Below are positions 19,078 to 36,320 of a stretch of 36,320 nucleotides of DNA, piece by piece. The DNA is from Deltaproteobacteria bacterium (GTDB taxonomy: Bacteria > Desulfobacterota > Binatia > Binatales > Binataceae): assembly GCA_003135135.1 (NCBI GenBank), contig PLDK01000025.1, forward strand, positions 70,056 through 106,375, written 5' to 3'. Each line of letters starts with the position of its first letter. Within the stretch, counting starts at the first letter, position 1. A model generated the notes under the pieces. The model had not been told where the DNA came from and ran no database searches. It saw only the letters and a list, made by a program, of their open reading frames with translations. Both the position numbers and the translations under genes were made by a program.

Positions 19078-19180
19078 GGCGATTCCTCCTGAATCAGGCG
19101 GCAACGGGTCGTCGTCCGCGCCCCTTTGCGATTTCATAGCACAACCGATCGGCGAAGCGCCCGCGCACGCTGCGGCAATG

Positions 19181-21178
19181 CTAGTTCTGATGCTTCAGCG
19201 GCGACGCGACGACGACGCGGAGCCGCGCGGTCGAGCCGGGAATCCGATCGCCTTTCATCGGCTCGTAGCGCCCGCCCAGATTGTCGGCCAGGAACTTCTC
19301 CATGCGGGCGGTGAAGTCGAGCCGATTTCCGGGCCGCACGAAGCCGTGGCCTTCGTCGGTGTATAAAACGTAAACCGCGCTCCCGCGATGCATGGCGATC
19401 GCATCGACGATCTGCTCGGCCTCGGCCTGCTTCACGCGTGGGTCGTTTGCGCCCTGGCCGATCAGCATCGGGATTTTTATTTTGTCGGCGGAGAACAACG
19501 GCGACGCCGTGGTCAGCAGCTCCTTGTCCCCGGGATCGCCGGGATTCCCAACCCTGGTGAAGAAGATCGAGCGCGCGACTTCCCAATACGGCGGAAACGA
19601 CTCCAACAACGTGAACAGATTCGACGGGCCGCATTCGTCCACCGCGCATCGATACAGATCGGGCGTGAATGCCGCCCCGGCCAGCGCCGCGTAGCCGCCG
19701 TACGAACCTCCGAATATCGCGACTCGCTTCGGATCGGCGATGCCTTGATCCACGGCCCACTTTACGCCGTCGGTCAGGTCGGTCTGCATTTCGAGGCCCC
19801 ACTGGCGGTCGCCGGCGTGCAGATATTTCTTTCCGAATCCGGTCGAGCCGCGAAAGTTTATCTGCAGCGCGGCATAACCCCGGTTCGCCAGCAGTTGGAT
19901 ATAGGGATTGAAGCCCCAGCTGTCGCGCGCCCACGGCCCGCCGTGCACCACGAGCACGATCGGGAGATTCTTGGGCGGCGCGCCAAGGGGAAGAGTGAGG
20001 TAACCGTTGATTTTCATCCCGTCGCGGGCGGCGAATTCAACCGGCTTCATCGCAGCGAGCGGCGCGTCGTCGAGTTTGGGCTGGGTGCTGAACAGAAAGG
20101 TCGCTTTCCTTGCCGCGCGATCCCACGAGTAGCAGCGCGCCGGCGCACGGTCGCTTACGAACGAGACGAGCCACGTCTGGTCGGCGAGGTCGCGGTCAAC
20201 GACGGTGAAATCTCCGGCGGTGATTTTCGCGATCGCGTCGAAGTCGGCCTGAACCGACGGGTCGACGACGGTCCAGTGCATCCGGCCGGGGTCGAACGCG
20301 GCTGCCTGCACGACGTGACGGGTCGGCTGAATCATCGCGTCGCTCAGGTCCGCATCGTCGCTGTGCGCGATAACCGTTTCATGGCCCGACGCGATCTCAT
20401 GGCGCACCAGGCGTGCGGTGTCCGTCCCGATCGAGCTGCTGAGAAAGATCGATTGCCTGTCCTGGCTGAAGTCCAGCGCCGCCAGGTTGTCTTCCATCGC
20501 GGCTTTCATCAACGTGCGCCACGGATCAGCCGCGCGGTCGCGAATCCGAAGCTCGGTGCCGCCGTCGGGCGTCGTGACCGTGGCCGCGCGCACTATCAGG
20601 TCGTCGTCGGCAAGCCATCCCGCGACGTCGCCGGGGTTTTGGGTATCGAGTTCGACGGCGCCGGTGCGCAGATCGATTCGATAGACGTCCATCAATTTGC
20701 GATCGCGGAGATTGAGCGCAACCAGTATCCGGCCGGGAAATTTCGGACTGGACGCGACGACCTCGGAGCGTACGCCCTGCCATGGCGTCAAATCGCGGAC
20801 GTTGTGCGAATCGAGGTCGACGGCGAACAGGTGGAAGTTTTCGTCGCCGGCGGCGTCCTGTGCGTAGAGGATCGTTTTCGAATCGAACGCCCATCCGTAG
20901 GATTGGATTCCACGGCTCTTGTCGGCGGTGACGACGCGCGTGTCGTGCTGGCCGACGGTTTGCACCCACACCTGCAGGATTTCGTGTTCGTCGGGAGCGA
21001 GCCATGCCAGCCGTTTGCCATCGGGCGCGATATGCGGATTGGCGCGCTCGGGATTGCCGAGCAGAGTGTCGCGCGGAATCAGCGGCGGCGGCTGGGCAAA
21101 GCCGGCAGGCGGGGGAATTGTCGAAGTCATCGTGAGGACCGCAATTATCAGCGAAACCTTTCGCGCGAATCCGAACAT
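19181..21178 (-). CDS. S9-family (prolyl oligopeptidase-type) exported serine peptidase
   Basis: A 665-residue secreted peptidase. The signal peptide covers about residues 1-28 (ending AGFAQ). A beta-propeller-type region with repeated APDGKRLAWL- and AFDSKTILYAQ-like blades spans to about 370. The C-terminal alpha/beta hydrolase domain has the oxyanion segment HGGPWARDSWGFN, nucleophile Ser492 in GGSYGGYAAL, Asp579 in GQGANDPRV and His611 in DEGHGF, a complete triad. It probably cleaves short peptides in the periplasm. ATG start at 21178; the divergent ferredoxin gene begins 195 bases away. Confidence 0.92.
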   Translation of the reverse strand: MFGFARKVSLIIAVLTMTSTIPPPAGFAQPPPLIPRDTLLGNPERANPHIAPDGKRLAWLAPDEHEILQVWVQTVGQHDTRVVTADKSRGIQSYGWAFDSKTILYAQDAAGDENFHLFAVDLDSHNVRDLTPWQGVRSEVVASSPKFPGRILVALNLRDRKLMDVYRIDLRTGAVELDTQNPGDVAGWLADDDLIVRAATVTTPDGGTELRIRDRAADPWRTLMKAAMEDNLAALDFSQDRQSIFLSSSIGTDTARLVRHEIASGHETVIAHSDDADLSDAMIQPTRHVVQAAAFDPGRMHWTVVDPSVQADFDAIAKITAGDFTVVDRDLADQTWLVSFVSDRAPARCYSWDRAARKATFLFSTQPKLDDAPLAAMKPVEFAARDGMKINGYLTLPLGAPPKNLPIVLVVHGGPWARDSWGFNPYIQLLANRGYAALQINFRGSTGFGKKYLHAGDRQWGLEMQTDLTDGVKWAVDQGIADPKRVAIFGGSYGGYAALAGAAFTPDLYRCAVDECGPSNLFTLLESFPPYWEVARSIFFTRVGNPGDPGDKELLTTASPLFSADKIKIPMLIGQGANDPRVKQAEAEQIVDAIAMHRGSAVYVLYTDEGHGFVRPGNRLDFTARMEKFLADNLGGRYEPMKGDRIPGSTARLRVVVASPLKHQN

Positions 21179-26481: not shown

Positions 26482-27307
26482 ATGACCAGAATCAAGCGTC
26501 TGCTGTTGGCAGCGACGGTTCTGCTGATGCTCGCGACGCCCGCATTCGCGCAGTACATACCATGGCCGACCCCCTTTCCCTGCCGCGCCTGCATGGGGTG
26601 ATTACGACGCCGGCCACGTTTGGCGCGACGGCGCATGGTGGTGGCAATCGCAGCCCGCGTGGGTACCGGTGCATCACCCTGAATGGTGGGGCGCCTTCGA
26701 CGACAAACACGCATGGCACACCGACACCTGGTGGGCGGAGAAAAACCCCACCGTAGCATTGCAGCGTCATCCCGAGTGGACCGATGCGATGCGCGAGTCA
26801 GTAACGCGCCAGCATGGCGAGCAACAGCAAGCTCTCCAGCGCCAGCATGATGTCCAGATGCAGGAGCTCGAGCGCAATCGCGTCCAGCAGCAGCAAGAGG
26901 CCGACCGCAACCGCGACGCGCAAATGCAGGAGCTTCAGCGAAAGAATGACGCGGAGGCGCAGGCTCTCGAGCGTCAGCATCTGCAGGAAGTGCAGCAGCG
27001 CGAGAAGGCCGCTCCTGAACAGGCAAATGAGCCAGAGGAAAATGGTCAGTGGCGGCAAGTCGAGGATAATTACGCCCAGCAAGCGGCGGAACTCTTGCAA
27101 CGCCATCAACAGGAAACGCAGGCGCTCGTGCGCAGGCAGGCGGCCGATCAACAGGAGGCTCAACGCCAGCATCTCGTGCAACAGCAGGCGTTACAGCGTC
27201 AGCATTCGCAGCAAATGCAGTCCTTTGAGCGACAGCATGCGCAGCAGATGCGTGTGTTTGCGAGCCCGCGTGGCGGTGGCAGCGGCGGCGGACATGGGCG
27301 TCGCTAG
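26482..27307 (+). CDS. secreted Trp-rich / coiled-coil protein, frame broken near the signal peptide
   Basis: The ATG at 26482 (GGGGTGG upstream) opens a clear signal peptide (MTRIKRLLLAATVLLMLA to AFAQ) and YIPWPTPFP, then hits TGA at 26599. The continuation is in the +1 frame: AAPAWGDYDAGHVWRDGAWW, a Trp-rich domain, and then a long Gln/Glu/Arg/His coiled coil with repeated ALQRQH/LERQH units and a Gly-rich basic tail ending at 27307. The two halves join exactly at codons CCC-T (26578-26581), so one extra base explains the break: sequencing error, true mutation or +1 frameshifting. The downstream frame alone has a GTG at 26669. The protein looks like a periplasmic fibrous or metal-binding protein of unknown role. 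Confidence 0.65.
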
Positions 27308-27395: not shown

Positions 27396-28229
27396 TCATT
27401 GCGGAATCCAGATGGGAGCGGCGCTGAACAGATGATCAACGATACCTATCTGGTACGCGAGGAACAGGCCAAAGCCGAAACTCAGTAGTCCAGAGCCGGT
27501 GACGAGGCCTTGATGGAGCCAGGACGCTCGCCGCGACGCGACCATGAACGGCGTGGCGATTGCGGTGGTGATGAGCCCCATTCCGATGATCGTACCGACG
27601 CAGAAAATCCCGAGGTAGAGCGTCGCCCACAGCGGTTGCGGAATCGCGCTCAGGACCAGCAACGCAATCGCGGCGCTGCCGGCGAGTCCATGGACGAGGC
27701 CCACTGCGAACGATCTCAGCAGCGGACGGCGCGCGGCGAACGGCGCCAATGTGCCGGCGAGGATGCGATGATCGTGATGCGTCGCATCGTCGCTATCTTC
27801 GTGAGCATGAACGTGAACGTGCGAATGCAGGTGCACGGCGCCGTCGTGAGCGTGAGCGTGCGCATGGACGAATAAGCCTTCATCCTCCGATGAACTCGCG
27901 CGCATCCGAGTCGCCGCTTTGCGAATCAAGCTTGCTGCCGAGCCGACGCCGAGCATAATCAGCACGACCGCGACTGCGAATTCCATGGCAAGTCCCAGCC
28001 GTGTCGGAATCGCAATTTTGAAAATGATGATCGCGGCGCCCACCAGCAGCACGGTCAGCGTGTGGCCGAGTCCCCATATGACACCGATCCGCGCCGCAAC
28101 GACCAGGCGGCGTTCGCGGCTCAGAATGGTCGTGACAGCGATCACGTGATCGGGATCGGTGGCGTGGCGCATTCCGAGCGCCAGTCCGAGGAGCGCGATT
28201 GCCAGCGGCGCGGCATTAGCAGGGAGCAT
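27396..28229 (-). CDS. nickel/cobalt transporter (NiCoT/UreH-like) with His-rich loop
   Basis: A 277-residue inner-membrane metal transporter. The signature GMRHATDPDHVIAVTT has the HX4DH pattern (His22, Asp27, His28) essential for Ni/Co transport, and a second family segment is GLVHGLAGSAAIALL. Between the halves, residues 121-154 form a loop very rich in His (HAHAHAH, HLHSHVHVHAH), probably a cytoplasmic metal buffer. Six or more hydrophobic helices. Start ATG at 28229 with AAGGAA upstream. Direction (uptake or efflux) cannot be settled; urease, hydrogenase or cobalamin genes are not in the window. Confidence 0.88.
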   Translation of the reverse strand: MLPANAAPLAIALLGLALGMRHATDPDHVIAVTTILSRERRLVVAARIGVIWGLGHTLTVLLVGAAIIIFKIAIPTRLGLAMEFAVAVVLIMLGVGSAASLIRKAATRMRASSSEDEGLFVHAHAHAHDGAVHLHSHVHVHAHEDSDDATHHDHRILAGTLAPFAARRPLLRSFAVGLVHGLAGSAAIALLVLSAIPQPLWATLYLGIFCVGTIIGMGLITTAIATPFMVASRRASWLHQGLVTGSGLLSFGFGLFLAYQIGIVDHLFSAAPIWIPQ

Positions 28230-28367
28230 CTGGTTGGTTCCTTCAGCCGATCGATCCAACCGACAGTACGCCCATTATTCTGGGCGAAGTGCAACGACGG
28301 GAATCCGCGCTCAAACTTCGCCTGAGCGGAGATTTGCGGTATGTTCCCTTCAGTTAGGGTGATCAAA

Positions 28368-28664
28368 ATGGAAATTTCGGCTTACAGCCGCGGGGGTGAT
28401 GCGCCATACGCCGCGCGTCGTTTGTCCGCGATTGCAACCGGTGCAACCGCGATCCTCCTTGTCCTGTCGTGGCGAGGCGAATGCTGGGCCTACATCGACC
28501 CTAATGCGGGAGGATTCCTGTCACAAATCCTGGTCCCGCTCGCATCGATCTTCCTTTCGTTCCTCTTTTACTGCCGTAAAGAAATCAGACGGTTAGCCAA
28601 ATCCGTCCGTGACCGATGGAAAAGAATCGATTCGCCCGGCGCCGCGCCCGAGGTTAGAAAGTAA
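28368..28664 (+). CDS. small membrane protein of the YIDPxxG type
   Basis: A 98-residue protein with a hydrophobic segment (ATGATAILLVLSW), the motif AYIDPNAGGFLSQ and a second helix (ILVPLASIFLSFLFYC) followed by a basic tail. Proteins with a YIDPG-like motif between two helices often sit beside sulfatase-fold or glycan-modifying genes; function unknown. Start chosen at the ATG at 28368, with AGGG 11 bases before; an earlier ATG at 28341 is possible. It ends three bases before the sulfatase-like gene and is probably co-translated. Confidence 0.7.
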   Translation: MEISAYSRGGDAPYAARRLSAIATGATAILLVLSWRGECWAYIDPNAGGFLSQILVPLASIFLSFLFYCRKEIRRLAKSVRDRWKRIDSPGAAPEVRK

Positions 28665-28667
28665 ATC

Positions 28668-30557
28668 GTGGGCCGGCGGTGGTGGTTGCTGTTTCGCAGC
28701 CTCGCAGTGGTAACGGTCCTTTTTCTCGCGCCGATTCTCGCCGTCCAGTTGCGTGCGTGGTTCTATTTTCTCTCGAAGTGGGATGCAGTCGCCCAACTGG
28801 CACTGGAAATCTCAGCCATTCTTTTGCTGGAAGCTTTGGGCGCGACCTTTCTCACTCTCGTTCTCTCCGGCGGCCGCGCGCTCAAGCTATGGAGTGATCA
28901 GGCCGATGCTAATTGCGCGGGGTTCCTCGCCCTCGCAAGCTCGATCTTATGCCTCCTTGCGCTAGTCAGCCCTGTGGGATCTCCGATCGTGAACGTTAGC
29001 CTGAGCGCGGCGCTGATCCTCGCGGCAATCGCTCTGCTTAAGTTCTTCGGCTGGCAGCCTGCTTTCGCGCTTTTCAACCGACTCAACCAATCAGCACAGA
29101 TTGTACTGGCGGCCTGTCCGCTGCTGCTGATTCCCATGCTTGCCGGAGGCCTCGGCTGGCGTAGCTTCGATCCGATGCCGCAGGCGCAGCGGTTCACACC
29201 GAACCCCCAGGCCAAGCCTAACGTGGTATTGATCAGCTTCGATGCGCTGACCGCTCAGGACATGTCGCTCTATGGCTACGGGCTGCCGACCACGCCGCGA
29301 TTCGAGCGGCTTGCCCAGCGCAGTTACAACTTCGTCAACTTCGTCTCGACCTCGGATTTCACCACGCCGGCGGTCGCGTCGATGTTGACCGGCCAGTACC
29401 CGCTGACCAATCGGGTGTTCCAACTCAATGGGCACATCCCTCATCGCCTGCGCGAGCACAACGTTGCCTGGATACTGCGCCAGCACGGATATACGACTGC
29501 GGCAATGGTTACCAACCCAGCGGCCCATCCCCTGACTTTGCGGCTCTCGGATTCCTTTTCGAGCCTGCCTTGGCCCCCGGTGAACTCCTGGTTTTTCCCC
29601 GGAACCTTCCTGCTCCAATTGCGCCATGGCCTGCTGTCCGACGCCGCCAACGACCTCGCGGTCCTTGCGCTCAGGAATTTCGGTTCTCTTTTCGACCGAT
29701 TCAACAAGGCGAGCTGGGTCGAGCCGCGCGCGGTCTTTGCTTCTGCCCGGGACTTTATACGCGGCACGCGCACGCCCTACTTCCTGTGGATTCACCTGTA
29801 CCCACCCCATGCCCCGTACATGACGGACGCCCGCTTTCGGGGCCGGTTTCTGCCGGGTTCCGAGTTCACCACTCAAGCGCAGTACTTTTTCCAAACACCC
29901 CCGCTATTCTATCCACCAGAGATGCAACACAAAGTCGACTTGCTGAGGCTGCGCTATGACGAAAGCATCGCCGAGTGCGACAGTGCTCTGGGGGAGTTCC
30001 TTGACTGGATGGCGACCAGCCATCGAGACGCGAACACTGTCCTGGTTGTGACCGCCGATCATGGCGAGAACTTTTCCGGCGGCTGGTGGACCCACGAATC
30101 GCCGGATCTGCGTTATGCCGAAACCCACATTCCCCTGCTGATTTCGTTGCCAGGCCAGAGCCACAGCTACACCGAAACCGAAAACGGCGACCTCTCCGAT
30201 GTCGCGCCCACGCTTCTTGCCGTGCTCGGAATCGCGAGACCGTCATGGATGGATGGCCACCCGCTCATTGGCGCGGCGCGGGCGCCGTCCCCGCCGCAAC
30301 CCGCCATTTCGATGTATCTCGCCCAATCAAGTGCATTCAGCCGGCCCGAGGTCGGAACGATCGCCGCGAATTCCGGTCCCTATCATCTTGTGTTGTATTT
30401 TCCCTCCGGACGCGCCGAGCTTTTCGATATCGCCAGTGACCCCGACGAAACGCGCTACGCCGCATTTACTCCTGGCGTGGCGATGGCGCTGGTCCAGGAC
30501 ATCAAGCGGCGCTTTTGCGATTCGCTCAATTGCGGGCCGCCGGTCTGCGGTCCATGA
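28668..30557 (+). CDS. membrane-anchored sulfatase-fold (alkaline phosphatase superfamily) enzyme
   Basis: A 629-residue protein with about four to five helices in the first 165 residues and a catalytic domain after. Metal and active-site marks: NVVLISFDAL (Asp192), the nucleophile region FTTPAVASMLTG with Thr232 where sulfatases have Cys or Ser, YPPHAPY near 381, and VTADHGENFSGGWWTHES (Asp464, His465, His476). Lack of the C/S-x-P-x-R sulfatase motif argues against formylglycine sulfatase chemistry; a Thr nucleophile is used by phosphoglycerol and phosphoethanolamine transferases of this superfamily. Start GTG at 28668. Its stop overlaps the sulfotransferase start (ATGA). Substrate unknown, probably an envelope glycan or lipid. 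Confidence 0.85.
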   Translation: MGRRWWLLFRSLAVVTVLFLAPILAVQLRAWFYFLSKWDAVAQLALEISAILLLEALGATFLTLVLSGGRALKLWSDQADANCAGFLALASSILCLLALVSPVGSPIVNVSLSAALILAAIALLKFFGWQPAFALFNRLNQSAQIVLAACPLLLIPMLAGGLGWRSFDPMPQAQRFTPNPQAKPNVVLISFDALTAQDMSLYGYGLPTTPRFERLAQRSYNFVNFVSTSDFTTPAVASMLTGQYPLTNRVFQLNGHIPHRLREHNVAWILRQHGYTTAAMVTNPAAHPLTLRLSDSFSSLPWPPVNSWFFPGTFLLQLRHGLLSDAANDLAVLALRNFGSLFDRFNKASWVEPRAVFASARDFIRGTRTPYFLWIHLYPPHAPYMTDARFRGRFLPGSEFTTQAQYFFQTPPLFYPPEMQHKVDLLRLRYDESIAECDSALGEFLDWMATSHRDANTVLVVTADHGENFSGGWWTHESPDLRYAETHIPLLISLPGQSHSYTETENGDLSDVAPTLLAVLGIARPSWMDGHPLIGAARAPSPPQPAISMYLAQSSAFSRPEVGTIAANSGPYHLVLYFPSGRAELFDIASDPDETRYAAFTPGVAMALVQDIKRRFCDSLNCGPPVCGP

Positions 30558-31627
30558 ATTCGGGTGCCTGGTCACGGCCGGTATTCAATCTGAATCTCTC
30601 CGCATGGCGCAGTATCCGCAGCCGCCATCGTGAACCGATCAATCGCGCGCTGGAATTGCGCTTCCGCCTGACCGGCAGCATGCTGTCGGCGCTGGGGATG
30701 CTCCAGGAGCGGTTGTACCGGCGCACCTTTGACCAACTCGATCTCAGGCCACCGCTGTTCCTCGTAGGGCATTGGCGCAGCGGAACTACTCTGCTGCACG
30801 AGTTGCTCGCGCTCGACGAGTCCTTTGCTGCTCCGAGCACTTACGCTTGCTTCAATCCGCATCACTTTCTGCTCACGCGCCACCGCGCACCCTCCATGAA
30901 ACAACTTGCCCGGCCGACCGGCGACATGACCGTTTCACCTTTCTCACCGCAGGAGGAAGAGTTCGCCCTGCTCTGCATGGGCGCGACCTCACCATATGAG
31001 GCGTTCGTGTTTCCCTCCGCGCTCCGTCAGTTCGAGGCTTTGTGCGATCCCGACCTTTTCGGGCGGGCACAGCAGCAAAAATGGAACGACGCGATTACGT
31101 GGATATTGAAAGCGACAGCGTACCTGCGCGGCGCGGACAAGCGGTTGCTGGTCAAATCTCCGGCCAACTCGTTTCGAATTCCGAGGCTCGGCACTCTCTT
31201 TCCCGGCGCAATGTTCATTCGGCTGGTACGCGAGCCATGCGCTGTTTTTGCTTCTACGCTGAAGCTCTGGCAGGGCATGTGGGAGCGGTATGCACTGGCC
31301 GCACCGCTCGCGCAGGAGGTGTTGATCGAGCGGATTCTGGAAACGCGGCTGACGTTGGAACGAAGGCTAAAAAGCTCGCTGCGGAATCTGCCGGCGGACA
31401 GGACTGTGACCATCCGTTACGAGGAAGTGGTTGCCGACCCGTGCGGTACAATTGGGCGTTTGTACGAACGACTGGCGCTCGGCGATCCGTCCTCTCTGTT
31501 GCCCAAGGTGAGCGCGTATATGGCGCAACATCCGCGCTCGGCGACACGTTCAGGCGAAGATTGGCGCCAACTGGTAGAAGCTCGCTGGCCTGAACTGTTC
31601 GACGAATTCGGTTACGCGCCGGGCTAA
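30554..31627 (+). CDS. PAPS-dependent sulfotransferase family protein
   Basis: A 357-residue sulfotransferase, moving sulfate from PAPS to an acceptor. The 5'-phosphosulfate loop is VGHWRSGTTLLHELL (Arg75 to Thr79), and the 3'-phosphate region is FIRLVREPCAVFASTLKLW with its Arg and Ser. KSPANSFRIPRL and TIRYEEVVADP are also family-like. The ATG at 30554 overlaps the preceding stop, so it is coupled to the sulfatase-fold gene. It is the last chromosomal gene before the putative attachment site. Soluble or peripheral; acceptor unknown. Confidence 0.9.
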   Translation: MNSGAWSRPVFNLNLSAWRSIRSRHREPINRALELRFRLTGSMLSALGMLQERLYRRTFDQLDLRPPLFLVGHWRSGTTLLHELLALDESFAAPSTYACFNPHHFLLTRHRAPSMKQLARPTGDMTVSPFSPQEEEFALLCMGATSPYEAFVFPSALRQFEALCDPDLFGRAQQQKWNDAITWILKATAYLRGADKRLLVKSPANSFRIPRLGTLFPGAMFIRLVREPCAVFASTLKLWQGMWERYALAAPLAQEVLIERILETRLTLERRLKSSLRNLPADRTVTIRYEEVVADPCGTIGRLYERLALGDPSSLLPKVSAYMAQHPRSATRSGEDWRQLVEARWPELFDEFGYAPG

Positions 31628-31652
31628 CCGCCACTGGTGGCGCGCGAGGGGA

Positions 31653-31675
31653 TGGTGGAGGCGGGGGGAATTGAA
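31653..31675 (-). other. putative att site: 3' end of a tmRNA (ssrA) gene
   Basis: On the minus strand the segment reads TTCAATT (a T-loop), then CCCCC, CGCCTCC, A and CCA: T-stem, acceptor strand, discriminator and CCA end. The discriminator A and CTCCACCA ending fit tmRNA better than tRNA-Ser, which has G. No body of the RNA precedes it, so it is a remnant, as left at the far end of an element integrated in the 3' end of the gene. Confidence 0.6.
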
Positions 31676-31690
31676 TAGATGGCCTAAGCA

Positions 31691-31748
31691 TTTGAAAACA
31701 CGAGGTTTTCTAATTTGGTTTTCAAAAGCTACCCCCAAAGCTACCCCT
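31691..31748. repeat. inverted arms and tandem repeats next to the att site
   Basis: A perfect nine-base inverted repeat (31691-31699 with 31718-31726) is followed by two 12-base units AAAGCTACCCC[C/T]C-like starting at 31725 and 31737. Such short repeats beside an att core are typical of integrase or excisionase binding sites; this role is inferred. Confidence 0.45.
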
Positions 31749-32197
31749 CCACAGTATAGGCTTAGGTGGTGCCGCTCACTGACCTGACCAGCGATCTCGC
31801 CATGACCGACCTCAGTTGGTCCTCTGACACGAGCCCGCCTCGCAATCGGGCACTCGGGAACGACCGGCAGGACATCCTACGCTCCGGTAAGCTTGGTCTC
31901 CGCGCAGGTCCCGATTACTTCCACATCATCGCTGATCGGCTGTTCGGGATATAGCGCTCTACCCCGGCGGGAGGTGGGGCGTGCTTGGCCAGGGGTCTAA
32001 TCTCAGGTGTCAGACCTCCTCGGCAAGAAAAATTATCTGAAATCATCGCTTCGTGATGACTGCTCACTCCTTAAGCCACTCGGGGCTAGAACTTGAACTC
32101 TTTCTTAGCGGATATCGCAAAAGATAACCAAAGTACACGGCCTCGTCATGAATCCAAAGGCAGCAGTCATCTCAGCGCCTTTCACGAATCGAATACC

Positions 32198-32252
32198 TTG
32201 ACAGAGACGAAGCCATGGCTGTTGAATAGAGACGTGAGTTTTCGAGGAGGGG
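32198..32252 (+). promoter_or_regulatory. promoter and ribosome site of the zinc-ribbon gene
   Basis: TTGACA (32198-32203) and TTGAAT (32222-32227) are 18 bases apart, a fair sigma-70 promoter. A strong ribosome site GAGGAGGGG follows at 32244-32252, directly before GTG at 32253. Confidence 0.5.
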
Positions 32253-32298
32253 GTGAACCGTTAACAGCTCGAAATACTGCACGAAGTGTGGTGCTCCC

Positions 32299-33111
32299 TT
32301 GGTGCGCGAGGCGCGTTTCTGTGCAAAGTGTGCCGCTCCCGTCTTCGTTGGCAGCTTGGAACCACTTCGGTCCCGAACTCCTGTAGCGAGGCTGAAGATT
32401 TTAGCCGTGGTTATGGGAACCTGCGCGGCGCTTGGGGCGCTACTCGCAGTGCCAAAGATAAGATCTCTTGCTATGTTCGCAGCCTCGGAGCCTTCGTCAA
32501 ACCAGTCGAACAGGTCGGCGGTAGCTGAGCGGCTTGCGGCCAATTCCCCACCAGCGGCCGCACCGACGCCAACGCCGTCGGTGTCAGCTAATATCACGAG
32601 TCAGATGGCGAATTCCGTCGAGGTATCCGGGGCTAGTAGTGCTTTCGAGGGCGTCTGGGGCGGATATGACGGCGGCATGATTTATTTGCCTTCTGGCTAT
32701 CCGATTCGCCGGGTTGAACCTTCTCCATCGGGATACACGTTCCTTCTTCGCAATGGAACTATAGTCCTTACCTTTGGTCAGATAGGTGACCCGGCCACTA
32801 CCGCCAGCCATCCCAAGGCGTGGGCTCCTTCTCCTAATGAGATTGTATTGCGTATGGAATACGACACTTTCGACAGACATAACGTCAGTGTGTCCCGCTG
32901 CAAACTAAAAGGTACGGGTATTTCGTACTCAGAGGAAACAGCCATATATGACTCGCATTCTCGACAACTCATCGGAACCATGAAAACGAGTGGACGTCTT
33001 AAGAAGCTCGACGCGGACGCTGAGAAGCGCTGGGATAAGATCACAGCTGATTACCAAGCGCGTAACGGATTGGTCGATCTCGGAACTTTCGAGGCCCCCG
33101 CTGAAAAGTGA
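32299..33111 (+). CDS. zinc-ribbon membrane protein, start region damaged
   Basis: A 270-residue product from the first legal in-frame start (TTG at 32299). The frame upstream, from 32263, reads NSSKYCTKCGAPL before joining VREARFCAKCAAPV, so a complete double CxxC zinc ribbon spans the putative start, yet no ATG, GTG or TTG occurs between the TGA at 32254 and the ribbon. After the ribbon come a membrane helix (ILAVVMGTCAALGALLAV), a Ser/Pro/Ala linker and a C-terminal domain of about 150 residues with VWGGYDGGMIYLPSGYPIRR that I do not recognise. This looks like a small sensor or envelope protein carried by the island. Confidence 0.65.
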   Translation: MVREARFCAKCAAPVFVGSLEPLRSRTPVARLKILAVVMGTCAALGALLAVPKIRSLAMFAASEPSSNQSNRSAVAERLAANSPPAAAPTPTPSVSANITSQMANSVEVSGASSAFEGVWGGYDGGMIYLPSGYPIRRVEPSPSGYTFLLRNGTIVLTFGQIGDPATTASHPKAWAPSPNEIVLRMEYDTFDRHNVSVSRCKLKGTGISYSEETAIYDSHSRQLIGTMKTSGRLKKLDADAEKRWDKITADYQARNGLVDLGTFEAPAEK

Positions 33112-33124
33112 CTACGCGGAAGGG

Positions 33125-33289
33125 TCAAGCGCTAAGCTCACAACGCGCGATTGACAGCAGGATGTCAAGCAGCTCGGGGGCAACTTGGATGCATAGCCCT
33201 CGGGACTCCCTAATCTGACCTTTGGGCCGACCGCCCGGATTCGGTGACTCGCATCCGGGCTGCCAGCGCCCCTTCTCGTCCCTACTCAT
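33125..33289 (-). CDS. DUF5681-like small protein
   Basis: A 54-residue protein with the signature KGRWQPGCESPNPGGRPKGQ, matching the KGRFxPGxSGNPxGRPKG motif of DUF5681 proteins found in phages and islands, often near packaging or terminase genes. Start at ATG 33289; a longer GTG start at 33322 is possible. The family is usually longer, so this may be a minimal or truncated member. Converges with the zinc-ribbon gene, 13 bases apart. Confidence 0.6.
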   Translation of the reverse strand: MSRDEKGRWQPGCESPNPGGRPKGQIRESRGLCIQVAPELLDILLSIARCELSA

Positions 33290-33322
33290 TGGCGCTCGAT
33301 CCTCAGTAACACGACCTATCAC

Positions 33323-33448
33323 GCAATAACCATTCTAGCAAATTTCAACTACTGGACTTCTTCTTCTTTGACCGATGCACAGGCCGCGCTCACAGTGCCG
33401 TTGGTATTCGCTGACCTTGGCCAACCGCTTGTCAGCTTCCCCGCTGGT
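33323..33448. other. short AT-richer spacer
   Basis: Between the DUF5681-like start and the next stop I see no gene, repeat or strong promoter. Confidence 0.4.
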
Positions 33449-33847
33449 TTAGTTATACTTCTGGTTCATCTCCGCGTTCTTCTTTTTCTCTTCTTGTTCC
33501 CGCTCTTTTTGTGCCTTGAGCAACGGAGCTGTGTACTCCTTGCAGGCCTTCGCCGTGCGGAAGAAGGTGATGATACTGGTGTAAAGATCACCGGGGTGAA
33601 CAGTCACATCAACGCCGCCATCCACTCTGTCGGCGATTTTGTTATCGTTACCCATAGTATCGTAGAGTTGCTTCGGAGATTGATCGCTCCGCTGACAGGC
33701 CTCAATTGAGCAGCCGCTGCCGCCCTTCGGAGGTTCGAATCCCAGCCGTGAAAAATTGTCGCAGGATTCAGCCTTATACCAAGCCCCTGCATAAGCTGGT
33801 GAAGCCAGCGCCAGCGATGCGGCCACCAGAAGTTGCGTTACTTTCAT
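33449..33847 (-). CDS. small secreted hypothetical protein
   Basis: A 132-residue protein with a clear signal peptide (MKVTQLLVAASLALASPAYA, cut after residue 20). The mature part has three or four Cys (AESCDNF, GSGCSIEACQ, AKACKEY), which could form disulfides, and ends in a charged Lys/Glu helix. GGGAG lies about 10 bases before the ATG, so translation is likely. No family recognised. It is an island gene on the minus strand between the DUF5681-like gene and the 301-residue gene. Confidence 0.7.
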   Translation of the reverse strand: MKVTQLLVAASLALASPAYAGAWYKAESCDNFSRLGFEPPKGGSGCSIEACQRSDQSPKQLYDTMGNDNKIADRVDGGVDVTVHPGDLYTSIITFFRTAKACKEYTAPLLKAQKEREQEEKKKNAEMNQKYN

Positions 33848-33941
33848 TGTCGTCGTTCTCCCTTCTCCCAGACTTAACTTTCCTTAGTTAAACAGCAGCC
33901 GAAGTTCAAGCGAAGCGTCTGCGCAGATTAAGGCTGGGGTG

Positions 33942-34847
33942 CTAATCAGCCGACCCGCGCCGGGTAAATGGTTCCTCGCCAAGTAGATTCTCGAAGGAAG
34001 GTGTCATAACTTCCCAACACTTTTCACATCGCCATTCACCCGATACCCTTTCCGCAAGCTGCATTGTTGGATGACACTTGGGGCAGCACATATATAGAGG
34101 TTTCTTGATCTCCTCCATCAGTGCCTTGGCCCGATCCGTGAGCGGTGGTGGCACCTTTTTATGGGATCGATCCAGCTGCGGAGTTGCGACGCCGCCTTTC
34201 ACCTCGGCGCGAGATATGGGATCGTTCTCGGGCTTAATTCTCACGGGACGCCAAGGACGGCGTGGCCGATCTTCATCATCTTCGGGATCGTTTTCCTGAT
34301 GTACTGGATCATTTGCGGGATCATTTCGCGGGACAATGGGATCGTTTACGGGATCGTTTACGGGATCGCTTTGAAATGATCCCTTCCTTCCTAAGAAGGA
34401 AGAAGGGATCAAACCGCTTTCTGCGGGTTTGAATCCCATACCAGACAAGTAGGAAGGATCAGAATCCAGACAGCCCGAACCGCTACCGCTAGGTTCAGGG
34501 CTCATCTCAGAAGGTGCACCTTGTGATGCTTCCTTGTCGAGTCCAACTAGTTGCCAAGTTGGCGCAAGTTCTTTCTTGAAGTTCCCGTCCTTGATTTTCT
34601 TTACCAGCCGCATCTCTTGCAACTTTGCCGTCAGCCGCTTGCAACTGCCGCTCGATGTCCCGGTCTCCCGGTTTACTTGCGACATGGCGAGCCCGAAGTT
34701 GCCGTCCGCGCCCGCGTGCTCGACATAGGTCTCGACGAACACGCGCAGGATCGCGATCATCTTGTCGGCTTCCCGCCGTTGCAACCGCGCCTCGCCGATC
34801 ACCCCCACGGCGGTGTCGAGCCAACTCTGTATTTGTTCTGCTTCCAT
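33942..34847 (-). CDS. island protein with winged-helix-like N-terminus, NDP repeats and C-terminal zinc ribbon
   Basis: A 301-residue protein. Residues about 10-100 look like a helix-turn-helix or winged-helix unit (MSQVNRETGTSSGSCKRLTA, then KLQEMRLVKKI). A low-complexity middle has about six NDP[VIA]-type repeats, and the C-terminus has CCPKCHP and WRCEKCW, a four-Cys zinc ribbon. Start ATG at 34847. It follows the AlpA-type regulator gene by 70 bases on the same strand. The place and architecture recall replication-initiation or primase-helper proteins of small elements, but no replication motif is seen; function open. Confidence 0.7.
   Translation of the reverse strand: MEAEQIQSWLDTAVGVIGEARLQRREADKMIAILRVFVETYVEHAGADGNFGLAMSQVNRETGTSSGSCKRLTAKLQEMRLVKKIKDGNFKKELAPTWQLVGLDKEASQGAPSEMSPEPSGSGSGCLDSDPSYLSGMGFKPAESGLIPSSFLGRKGSFQSDPVNDPVNDPIVPRNDPANDPVHQENDPEDDEDRPRRPWRPVRIKPENDPISRAEVKGGVATPQLDRSHKKVPPPLTDRAKALMEEIKKPLYMCCPKCHPTMQLAERVSGEWRCEKCWEVMTPSFENLLGEEPFTRRGSAD
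34338..34373. repeat. 12-base tandem repeats in the 301-residue gene
   Basis: GGGATCGTTTAC recurs at 34338, 34350 and, with one change, at 34362; more diverged copies of GGGATC or GGATCATTT lie to the left as far as about 34222. They encode the NDP repeats. Confidence 0.75.
34378..34410. repeat. strong hairpin inside the 301-residue gene
   Basis: GATCCCTTC and GAAGGGATC arms, extended by TTCCT/AGGAA across a one-base bulge, leave a four-base loop (34393-34396). It borders the tandem repeats within the coding region. Confidence 0.6.
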
Positions 34848-34917
34848 CTGATCCGTCTCCTTTCCACCGATCTTATAGGGTCATCTAACGGGCTCGAAGA
34901 TCATCATCATGGTCTAG

Positions 34918-35172
34918 TTAGCTGCTGTTCTCGGCTTCGGAGTTCCGGTTCGCGGCCAGCTCGCGGCTCTTACCGGCTGAACGCTCGATCAGGGCGATAA
35001 TGTCGGATGCCCGCCAGCAAGTTGTTCGTGGCCCGAGCTTGACGGACTGAGGGAAGCGACCGGACTTCACGCCTGCCCACCAACTTGAGGGCGACACCGG
35101 CACGATTTTCAGCACCTCGGGTAAGCGCAAAAGCGCGATTGAGTCCAAGGAAGTGTGGTCGCGCTGATTCAC
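34918..35172 (-). CDS. AlpA-family phage/island transcriptional regulator
   Basis: An 84-residue helix-turn-helix protein. SIALLRLPEVLKIVPVSPSS, then WWAGVKSGRFPQSVKLGPRTTCWRASDI, is the AlpA signature. AlpA proteins activate excision (excisionase-like) or regulate integrase in P4-type elements, in line with the integrase at the right edge. The GTG start at 35172 has TATAAT (35180-35175) only two bases ahead; if that is its -10, the transcript would begin inside the gene, so either the promoter or the start is elsewhere. Confidence 0.85.
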   Translation of the reverse strand: MNQRDHTSLDSIALLRLPEVLKIVPVSPSSWWAGVKSGRFPQSVKLGPRTTCWRASDIIALIERSAGKSRELAANRNSEAENSS

Positions 35173-35271
35173 ATATTATAGTGTACGTAATTTCGAAATC
35201 TCGACAAGCTGACGGGTTTGAAGATGATTCCTGCTTACGTTCTGACTTTATTGATATTCTACTGACGGGTT
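35173..35271. promoter_or_regulatory. divergent promoter region with direct repeats
   Basis: An AT-rich gap between the AlpA-type gene and a rightward gene. CTGACGGGTT occurs twice (35209-35218 and 35262-35271), 53 bases apart, and TTCGAA and TACGTA palindromes are nearby. These may be regulator or integrase-accessory sites. Confidence 0.4.
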
Positions 35272-35883
35272 ATGCCTGGACGTTCAAATTTCATCATTCC
35301 CTTCGTCGCGATCCGAAACCTAGCCAGGGCGGGAAGATTCGGTCCCGACTGCGAAAGCGAGATCGAAAACTTGGTGGACGTGATTTTTTCTGCGATGATC
35401 GGCAAAGGGCCGAGCGCAGGAGGCGGAGATCGGTCACCTCGGCCTGATGCACCAGCGGAGCCCGATCCCACTGTCCGGTCGGTCGCGCACGCCCTCAGTC
35501 GATTCGGCCCGTTCGTTGCCAGGGTGATCGAGTCTGCGGTTGAGAAGGAGCGGCAGGTTTCTCCCCCGCGTGGTGCACCCGACGAGATCTCGGATGACCT
35601 CGGTGATGTGGTTTCGCAGATATTGCCATCAGATCGCGGTCGGTGGAACCGCGATCCTCTCGATGTCCTGTGCGATCTTCAGGAACGGTTGATCGAGACT
35701 ATTAAGGTCACAGACATCGACCGCCTCAGGTTTTGCCCGGCTTGCCACAAAATGTATTACGCTCATCACAAGTTGATGCAGGCTTGCTGTTCGAAGCACT
35801 CGCACCGAGTCCGGCAGCACAACTATTACAGAAGACTCCATGGCCCTAAGCGGGCCCGGCCGAGGCGATCTCGGACGAGGTAG
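35272..35883 (+). CDS. hypothetical protein with C-terminal CGNR-like zinc finger
   Basis: A 203-residue protein. The C-terminal region has RFCPACHKMYYAHHK, then CCSKHSHRVRQHNYYRR, resembling the CGNR zinc finger but with His in place of the last Cys. A basic tail (PKRARPRRSRTR) follows. The N-terminal two thirds are not recognised and contain a Pro/Asp linker near residue 55. Start ATG at 35272. Its end overlaps the integrase gene end by 38 bases on the opposite strand. Probably DNA- or RNA-binding. Confidence 0.65.
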   Translation: MPGRSNFIIPFVAIRNLARAGRFGPDCESEIENLVDVIFSAMIGKGPSAGGGDRSPRPDAPAEPDPTVRSVAHALSRFGPFVARVIESAVEKERQVSPPRGAPDEISDDLGDVVSQILPSDRGRWNRDPLDVLCDLQERLIETIKVTDIDRLRFCPACHKMYYAHHKLMQACCSKHSHRVRQHNYYRRLHGPKRARPRRSRTR

Positions 35884-36320
35884 CCACGCTGGCCGTCAAC
35901 TGCTCAAGATAATCCGCCCATGCCTGCATCATGCGCCGGCGCTCCGCCAGATACTCCGCTCGGTTGTACGCGTCTCGCACTCCATCACGCTCCGCGTGCG
36001 CAAGCTGGCGCTCGATCGCGTCGGCGGACCATCCCAATTCATTGAGCAATGTAGACGCCATCGTGCGGAACCCGTGCCCGGTCATCTGGTCCCGCTCGTA
36101 GCCCATCCGCCTCAGAGCCGCCAACACGGCATTTTCGCTCATCGCTCTGCCGGTGGTTCGAACGCTTGGGAAAACATAGCGGGCGGCTCCGGTCAGATGA
36201 TGCAACTCGCGCAGGATCTCGACTGCTTGTCGCGAGAGCGGAACAAGATGTTCAGTGCGCATCTTCATGCGTTCAGCCGAGATGCGCCACATCGCGCTGT
36301 CCAGATCAAACTCGCTCCAT
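35846..36320 (-). CDS. P4-type tyrosine integrase, partial (5' end beyond the window)
   Basis: The C-terminal 157 residues of a site-specific recombinase; the frame is still open at the window edge (WSEFDLDSAMWRIS, then AERMKMRTEHLVPLS). Catalytic-domain marks: GHGFRTMASTLLNELGW (His-x-x-Arg), ERQLAHAERDGVR (second His) and AYNRAEYL with the Tyr nucleophile. The first catalytic Arg lies outside. This form is typical of P4/CP4-57-like integrases that use the 3' ends of tRNA or tmRNA genes. It points leftward, in line with an attachment site just beyond the right edge. Confidence 0.92.
   Translation of the reverse strand, partial: WSEFDLDSAMWRISAERMKMRTEHLVPLSRQAVEILRELHHLTGAARYVFPSVRTTGRAMSENAVLAALRRMGYERDQMTGHGFRTMASTLLNELGWSADAIERQLAHAERDGVRDAYNRAEYLAERRRMMQAWADYLEQLTASVATSSEIASAGPA

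Follow-up and report, generated by a model that had tools for sequence, protein, structure and literature searches.

A small genomic island inserted at the 3' end of ssrA in a Binataceae genome

A 36,320-nucleotide stretch of DNA from a bacterium of the family Binataceae (hereafter the window; positions 70056-106375 of contig PLDK01000025.1, in a 3.73-Mb draft genome of 51 contigs) closes within a small integrative genomic island that almost certainly entered the chromosome by site-specific insertion at the 3' end of ssrA, the gene for transfer-messenger RNA (tmRNA). Two 23-bp direct repeats, one of them the end of the intact ssrA, enclose the 5,583-bp island. It begins in the window and runs on to extended coordinate 37235, where extended coordinates carry the window numbering beyond the window end (contig 106375). 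Between the repeats lie a complete tyrosine integrase gene, a gene for an AlpA-like regulator and five other genes. G and L numbers are our handles for genomes and loci.

Two copies of the ssrA end bound the island

A first-pass annotation of the window had read a 23-bp sequence near its right end, TGGTGGAGGCGGGGGGAATTGAA, as a tmRNA 3' end from T-loop to CCA and as the left boundary of an island, and had proposed looking for the intact gene on the minus strand beyond position 36320. Extending the contig bore this out. The window itself holds no transfer RNA (tRNA) or tmRNA gene by ARAGORN and no Rfam match at the gathering score, and an intact ssrA starts 916 bp to its right, beyond the integrase (contig 107291-107648, minus strand; L009:8292-8649 minus). 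This gene matches Rfam RF00023 at 197.4 bits over model positions 1-374, is not cut off and encodes the tag peptide ADNNGYALAA. Its last 23 nucleotides are identical to the window fragment, in the same orientation. Beyond ssrA lies a 163-amino-acid (aa) open reading frame (ORF) that resembles smpB in sequence and position. ARAGORN also reports a tRNA-Glu (L009:9198-9295) that overlaps the terminal part of this ORF on the other strand and is probably spurious.

The repeat is specific. The draft genome contains two exact copies of the 23-mer and no more, and both fall within a single 228-kb contig. With the fragment masked, the longest match of the last 40 nucleotides of ssrA to either strand of the window is 10 bp, and the 23-mer reversed without complementing it, as a control, gives 0 matches in each of 41 genomes of the family.

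Composition and gene content change at the same point, as the first-pass annotation had noted. The guanine-plus-cytosine (GC) content of the island is 56.1%, below every one of 63 overlapping stretches of equal length in the surrounding 48 kb (minimum 59.4%, mean 61.5%). Reading leftwards from ssrA, the genes are the integrase (-), ORF203 (+), the AlpA-like gene (-), ORF301 (-), ORF132 (-), ORF65 (-) and ORF270 (+). The integrase, which had been seen only in part at the window edge, is a complete gene of 405 aa on the strand of ssrA, and starts 173 bp from it. Tyrosine integrases share the catalytic motif R-K-HxxR-H-Y, and the corresponding residues here (R240, K267, H330, R333, H356 and Y366) are conserved in 107-109 of 109 aligned rows. 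Its Arm-DNA-bind_3, Phage_int_M and Phage_integrase domains all score over the Pfam cut-off, and a match to NCBIfam NF007246 falls below its own (279.9 vs 434 bits). By these sequence features the integrase is of the P4/CP4-57 type. The AlpA-like protein, whose Pfam family PF05930 is named after prophage CP4-57, also matches PHROG 2790 (excisionase and transcriptional regulator; E 4.6e-06).

These elements indicate how the island most probably arrived. The integrase would have recombined the chromosomal ssrA with an attP site on the island that bore its own copy of the gene's 3' end. The island copy would have completed the gene, so that the tmRNA stayed intact, and the original 23-bp end would have been displaced by 5.6 kb to its present position in the window. 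Since the integrase starts 173 bp from ssrA, its leader would double as the right attachment arm, and the AlpA-like protein would be the likely directionality factor or regulator. Present-day recombination, binding of repeats by the integrase, the role of AlpA and movement between cells are what we infer for this island.

The island has close counterparts among known elements. In E. coli CP4-57 the integrase gene likewise lies directly downstream of ssrA and co-oriented with it. Our island shares with CP4-57-like and P4-integrase ssrA islands the target, the integrase domain set and an AlpA regulator, and differs from them in being small (5.6 kb) and in that, for five of its seven genes, Pfam and NCBIfam give no family match over the cut-off and PHROGs and PADLOC nothing noteworthy. 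By Islander criteria it counts as a tDNA genomic island, with ssrA as the target and an integrase of the P4/CP4-57 type: an intact ssrA stands at one end, a displaced fragment of it in the same orientation at the other, the integrase lies between, and the element is absent from this locus in the relative G006. Islander islands have the same regenerated target gene and displaced fragment as ends with an integrase between them, and nothing essential differs in the parts of that description used here (PMC4383910).

Two relatives illuminate the locus. In G006, of the same genus, there is no island, and DNA colinear with the window (from ~28300 leftwards) restarts ~120 bp past ssrA; the first gene there is the counterpart of a NicO-like gene at window 27396-28259, whose NicO match is below the cut-off. 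G006 also lacks the block ~28300-31652, which holds ORF107, a sulfatase gene and a sulfotransferase gene. The sister genome G001 has the sulfotransferase gene (95% identical), then the same ssrA-end fragment (a 25-bp match), then DNA unlike the window. Its ssrA adjoins a different tyrosine integrase (354 aa; PF00589, 47.1 bits; no Arm-DNA-bind_3 match). The two G001 pieces, on separate contigs, would be the ends of one element. A protein resembling HSDR_N, the N terminus of type I restriction R subunits, is encoded beside this integrase (L139:105-1220; 32.6 bits vs a cut-off of 25.1).

Because the same block and the same fragment occur in the sister genome, the comparison suggests that ssrA adjoined the sulfotransferase gene before the insertion. 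The simplest history is then that the sulfotransferase block first became the neighbour of ssrA and that two insertions later took place separately at this one site; one element may also have replaced another. We considered whether the ~28300-31652 block could itself be an earlier island at ssrA; a search of the window that allowed up to 6 edits found no other ssrA remnant. A relative of the three-gene block in G019 lies away from ssrA, with no ssrA in the surrounding 17 kb, and relatives of the ORF107, sulfatase and sulfotransferase genes are present in G019, G016 and G008. The flank differs between the window and G006 in two further places: ~2 kb (window ~19116-21148) is missing between two colinear G006 blocks, and window ~26594-26780, in an ORF rich in Gln, His and Arg, aligns with G006 at numerous offsets, suggesting that the two genomes differ in the number of repeats.

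Gene content and competing explanations

Several observations weigh against the reading of an island integrated at ssrA. The comparison with a genome lacking the island, proposed by the first-pass annotation, agrees with that reading, in that ssrA of G006 runs straight into colinear chromosomal DNA, but G006 is not the exact pre-insertion state, and its empty site is one step removed since the neighbouring block is missing too. The joined attP that the model predicts has 0 exact matches in viral contigs. No transfer, replication or packaging gene was recognised among the seven island proteins scanned against Pfam, NCBIfam, PHROG and PADLOC.

The last of these results, together with a length of just 5.6 kb, bears on whether the island is still mobile. 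The same insertion could now be a decayed, immobile remnant without excision, and ORF65 looks the part, matching only the first part of DUF5681 and below the cut-off. However, the integrase is complete and retains the catalytic residues, the AlpA-like protein scores over its cut-off, and the repeats are identical over 23 bp. We regard decay as possible, though on balance improbable.

A second variant of the same reading, which we think unlikely, is that the island is a P4-like phage satellite moved by a helper phage. The P4-type integrase and AlpA fit such an element, as does the ssrA island of G029, which has a 67%-identical integrase and also encodes an 853-aa DUF3631 protein. P4-like satellites are marked by a primase or replication gene together with capsid-size or packaging functions, and the seven island proteins gave no match over the cut-off to such hallmark genes. 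No primase was recognised in the island, PHROG gave no packaging or capsid match apart from that of the integrase itself, which is weak (E 0.039), and ORF301 has no relative in the phage collection at E 0.01. ORF301 and the other ORFs of unknown function could be divergent members of satellite gene families.

Chance repetition or an artefact of assembly as the source of the 23-bp match is next to inconceivable. The draft does consist of 51 contigs, and in a relative, G013, an additional copy of the ssrA end was a contig-end overlap. We rejected both explanations for the window: a next-best match of 10 bp speaks against chance, and the location of both copies in one contig, with the same junction beside the same neighbour gene in sister G001, speaks against an artefact.

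The five other island genes are listed in Table 1. ORF270 gave weak matches in 4 when 147 other genomes of the class were searched; a zinc-ribbon-like N terminus is visible by eye (~32253-32340), and because its first CxxC lies upstream of the first standard in-frame start codon, the true start or the integrity of this ORF is uncertain. ORF301 has no relatives in those 147 genomes. The seven proteins gave no relaxase match in Pfam or NCBIfam (oriT was not searched), and PADLOC found no known anti-phage system among them, returning just ORF132 against PDC-S02 at E 0.045.

Table 1. Features of the ssrA island (window coordinates; extended coordinates where stated)
Feature	Coordinates	Strand	Basis
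Island part inside the window, continuing to extended 37235	31653..36320	.	Bounded by direct repeats; low GC; absent at G006 ssrA
Displaced ssrA 3' end (T-loop to CCA), left attachment-site copy of the island	31653..31675	-	Exact match to ssrA end; 25-bp match at same place in sister G001
Two direct repeats GCTACCCC, proposed integrase arm-type sites, left end	31728..31747	+	Motif positions
ORF270, function unknown	32299..33111	+	No Pfam or NCBIfam match over cut-off
ORF65, short, resembles start of DUF5681	33125..33322	-	PF18932 E 6.2e-05, 23.9 bits, below cut-off 27.5, profile 2-23 of 77
ORF132, function unknown; signal-peptide-like N terminus (by eye)	33449..33847	-	No Pfam, NCBIfam or PHROG match
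ORF301, function unknown	33942..34847	-	Sub-threshold winged-helix and zinc-ribbon-like hints alone
AlpA-like regulator, candidate excisionase, 84 aa	34918..35172	-	PF05930 E 1.8e-08, 34.6 bits vs cut-off 21
ORF203, C-terminal zinc-finger-like cysteine pattern (by eye)	35272..35883	+	No family match
P4/CP4-57-type tyrosine integrase, 3' part in window	35846..36320, gene to extended 37063 (405 aa)	-	Pfam domains and conserved residues
TACCCC counterparts near right end	extended 37103, 37115, 37126	+	Motif positions

Candidate arm-type sites and integration targets

Short repeats near both island ends are probably the arm-type sites of the integrase, to judge from their positions and recurrence. 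The motif TACCCC occurs six times on the plus strand of the island: two copies stand 55 and 67 bp inside the left repeat, three stand ~105-135 bp inside the right end, before the integrase start, and one is at 31960. The complement GGGGTA occurs at 36896, within the integrase gene, and at 37065, at its start. Across the 141 of 167 integrase loci with enough upstream DNA (the window's included), GGGGTA/TACCCC is present 155 times within 205 bp of sequence at the start of the integrase gene, compared with 8 times in stretches drawn at random from the same loci, and 44 loci have two or more copies vs 0.6. These counts are inflated by the shared ancestry of the loci, and about two thirds of loci have fewer than two. 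G029, G034, G036 and G049 carry such repeats in this interval as well. The far end of other islands allows a comparison with almost no power, as a second core was found within the available DNA in 3 of 96 loci with a target, the window among them; of the other two, one has the motif at each end and one does not. Together these patterns point to tandem GGGGTA(A/G)-type repeats near both ends as the likely integrase arm sites.

The position of the right-hand repeats, in the integrase leader, suggests that the integrase may regulate itself, because the same geometry is seen in KplE1. There the attachment region overlaps the promoter of the integrase gene intS, and the integrase represses its own promoter, with sites and repression measured in the part of that study drawn on here (PMC2951348). 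Attachment region and leader coincide likewise in our island, with the sites deduced from repeats.

Integrases of this family often sit beside tRNA or tmRNA genes. From named genomes we took the best 80 of 562 homologues, at 55-67% identity. In 67 of these, a tRNA or tmRNA gene in the same orientation lies no more than 700 bp upstream. These targets comprise 20 tmRNA, 13 Met, 12 Ala, 7 Cys, 5 Leu, 4 Ser and 6 other genes. The best 80 of 165 homologues from viral contigs include 22 with such a target (2 of them tmRNA); many of the viral contigs begin at the integrase. Homologues lie directly downstream of ssrA in G029, G034, G036 and G049.

We built a quick tree of 109 of the 167 integrases, dropping 58 viral-contig rows with no detected target and keeping 13 such rows from named genomes unlabelled. 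Five target labels require 31 changes on it vs a shuffled mean of 45.4. On this tree the labels are thus clustered yet change often, and because they do, related integrases switch targets. A single clade of integrases dedicated to ssrA finds no support: the tmRNA label alone needs 17 changes, at least 8 of them forced by starred branches, vs 22.6 when shuffled. The window integrase clusters with those of G029 and G034 (tmRNA) and G015 (tRNA-Ser), with support 98.

The ssrA end as a shared docking site

Integrases of at least three types lie at the ssrA end in no fewer than 7 of 22 genomes of the family, which makes this end a shared docking site. We examined 29 family genomes with a tmRNA match, of which 22 extend at least 1.5 kb beyond ssrA and the other 7 are ended by contig ends. 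The integrase type of the window lies at ssrA in G000, G029 and G034, and that of G001 is described above. In G012, G030 and G035 the integrases face ssrA, and an open frame runs into the end of that gene. Those of G012 and G030 have Arm-DNA-bind_2 over the cut-off and PF00589 just below it; that of G035 may be a further type, since PF00589 is matched over the cut-off and Arm-DNA-bind_2 is not. A bulk scan of 87 ORFs from the other 15 genomes showed no integrase among 25 of 58 matched families, and the remaining 33 families make 7 of 22 a lower bound. A recombinase-motif pattern did not serve on its own for counting, because it failed to detect the integrase of G001 and its single match in G020 was unlikely. 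Outside the family, in the same class, G036 and G049 carry the window's integrase type at ssrA.

The 23-mer occurs exactly in 35 of the 41 family genomes, with extra copies in G000, G001, G013, G015, G032 and G035. The extra copy in G013 was rejected as a displaced fragment, since it lies where two contig ends overlap by 107 bp. One contig of G015 carries ssrA and a second has a different left neighbour; both stop after the same core and 84 bp more, a pattern compatible with a mixed population or a tandem array. Contigs of relatives also end exactly at the ssrA 3' end (G005, L180:1) or 84 bp past the core (G013 and G015; ends of L152, L155 and L297), as expected if the site varies within the sampled populations. 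By eye, two more types of left-flanking sequence are each shared between genera next to copies of the ssrA end, one in G015 and G032 (three copies) and one in G015 and G035 (L297, L300, L301 and L298, L303), and suggest further island families at the ssrA site.

Docking at ssrA has precedents elsewhere. In the portion of the Islander survey considered here, the tmRNA gene is more enriched among island targets than any tRNA isoacceptor type (PMC4383910). Dehalococcoides islands lie between ssrA and a second, directly repeated 20-bp copy of the gene's 3' end, and many different islands, some in tandem, use that site (PMC3146451). Their integrase, as given in the sections of that paper used here, is the serine recombinase DsiB, whereas the window island has a tyrosine recombinase.

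One gene of the island may have a part in its movement. ORF203 overlaps the integrase gene tail-to-tail and has weak matches in 3 of 147 other genomes of the class (G087, G014 and G032). A counterpart lies between the integrase and alpA genes in the G029 ssrA island, found by its position and cysteine pattern, with kinship not independently scored. Among the 167 integrase loci, ORF203 or this counterpart, used as a query in its turn, was matched only at the window and G029 loci; three further matches are loci added because they were already known to match. The P4-type ssrA loci of G034, G036 and G049 gave no such match, with little DNA beyond their integrases. This pattern hints faintly at a conserved module of integrase, zinc-finger and alpA genes.

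ORF203-like proteins adjoin mobile-element-like genes (L173:4381-5214, L273:1329-2120, L275:4609-5226). The neighbours are the integrase and alpA genes in G029, primase-like and DUF3631-like ORFs in G087 and, in G032, another tyrosine-integrase-like ORF and a helix-turn-helix-like ORF, the last two genomes judged by eye.

A broader picture would join these strands, and as a whole we hold it to be decidedly doubtful. The ssrA 3' end of the family would be a contested dock, reached by convergence in at least three separate types of tyrosine integrase; its occupants would differ between sister species, and populations might mix occupied and empty sites. The ORF203-type zinc-finger-like protein, encoded between the integrase and AlpA genes in two of five P4-type ssrA elements (window and G029), would be an unrecognised accessory of integration or excision.

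Islands in ssrA are already well known, and this one is ordinary in kind: not surprising, and useful for annotation. It provides the exact ends of one mobile element, and these, like the proposed arm repeats, are defined closely enough for recombination to be tested directly. The element sits in ssrA without breaking ribosome rescue, and in related genomes unrelated elements reuse the same site.

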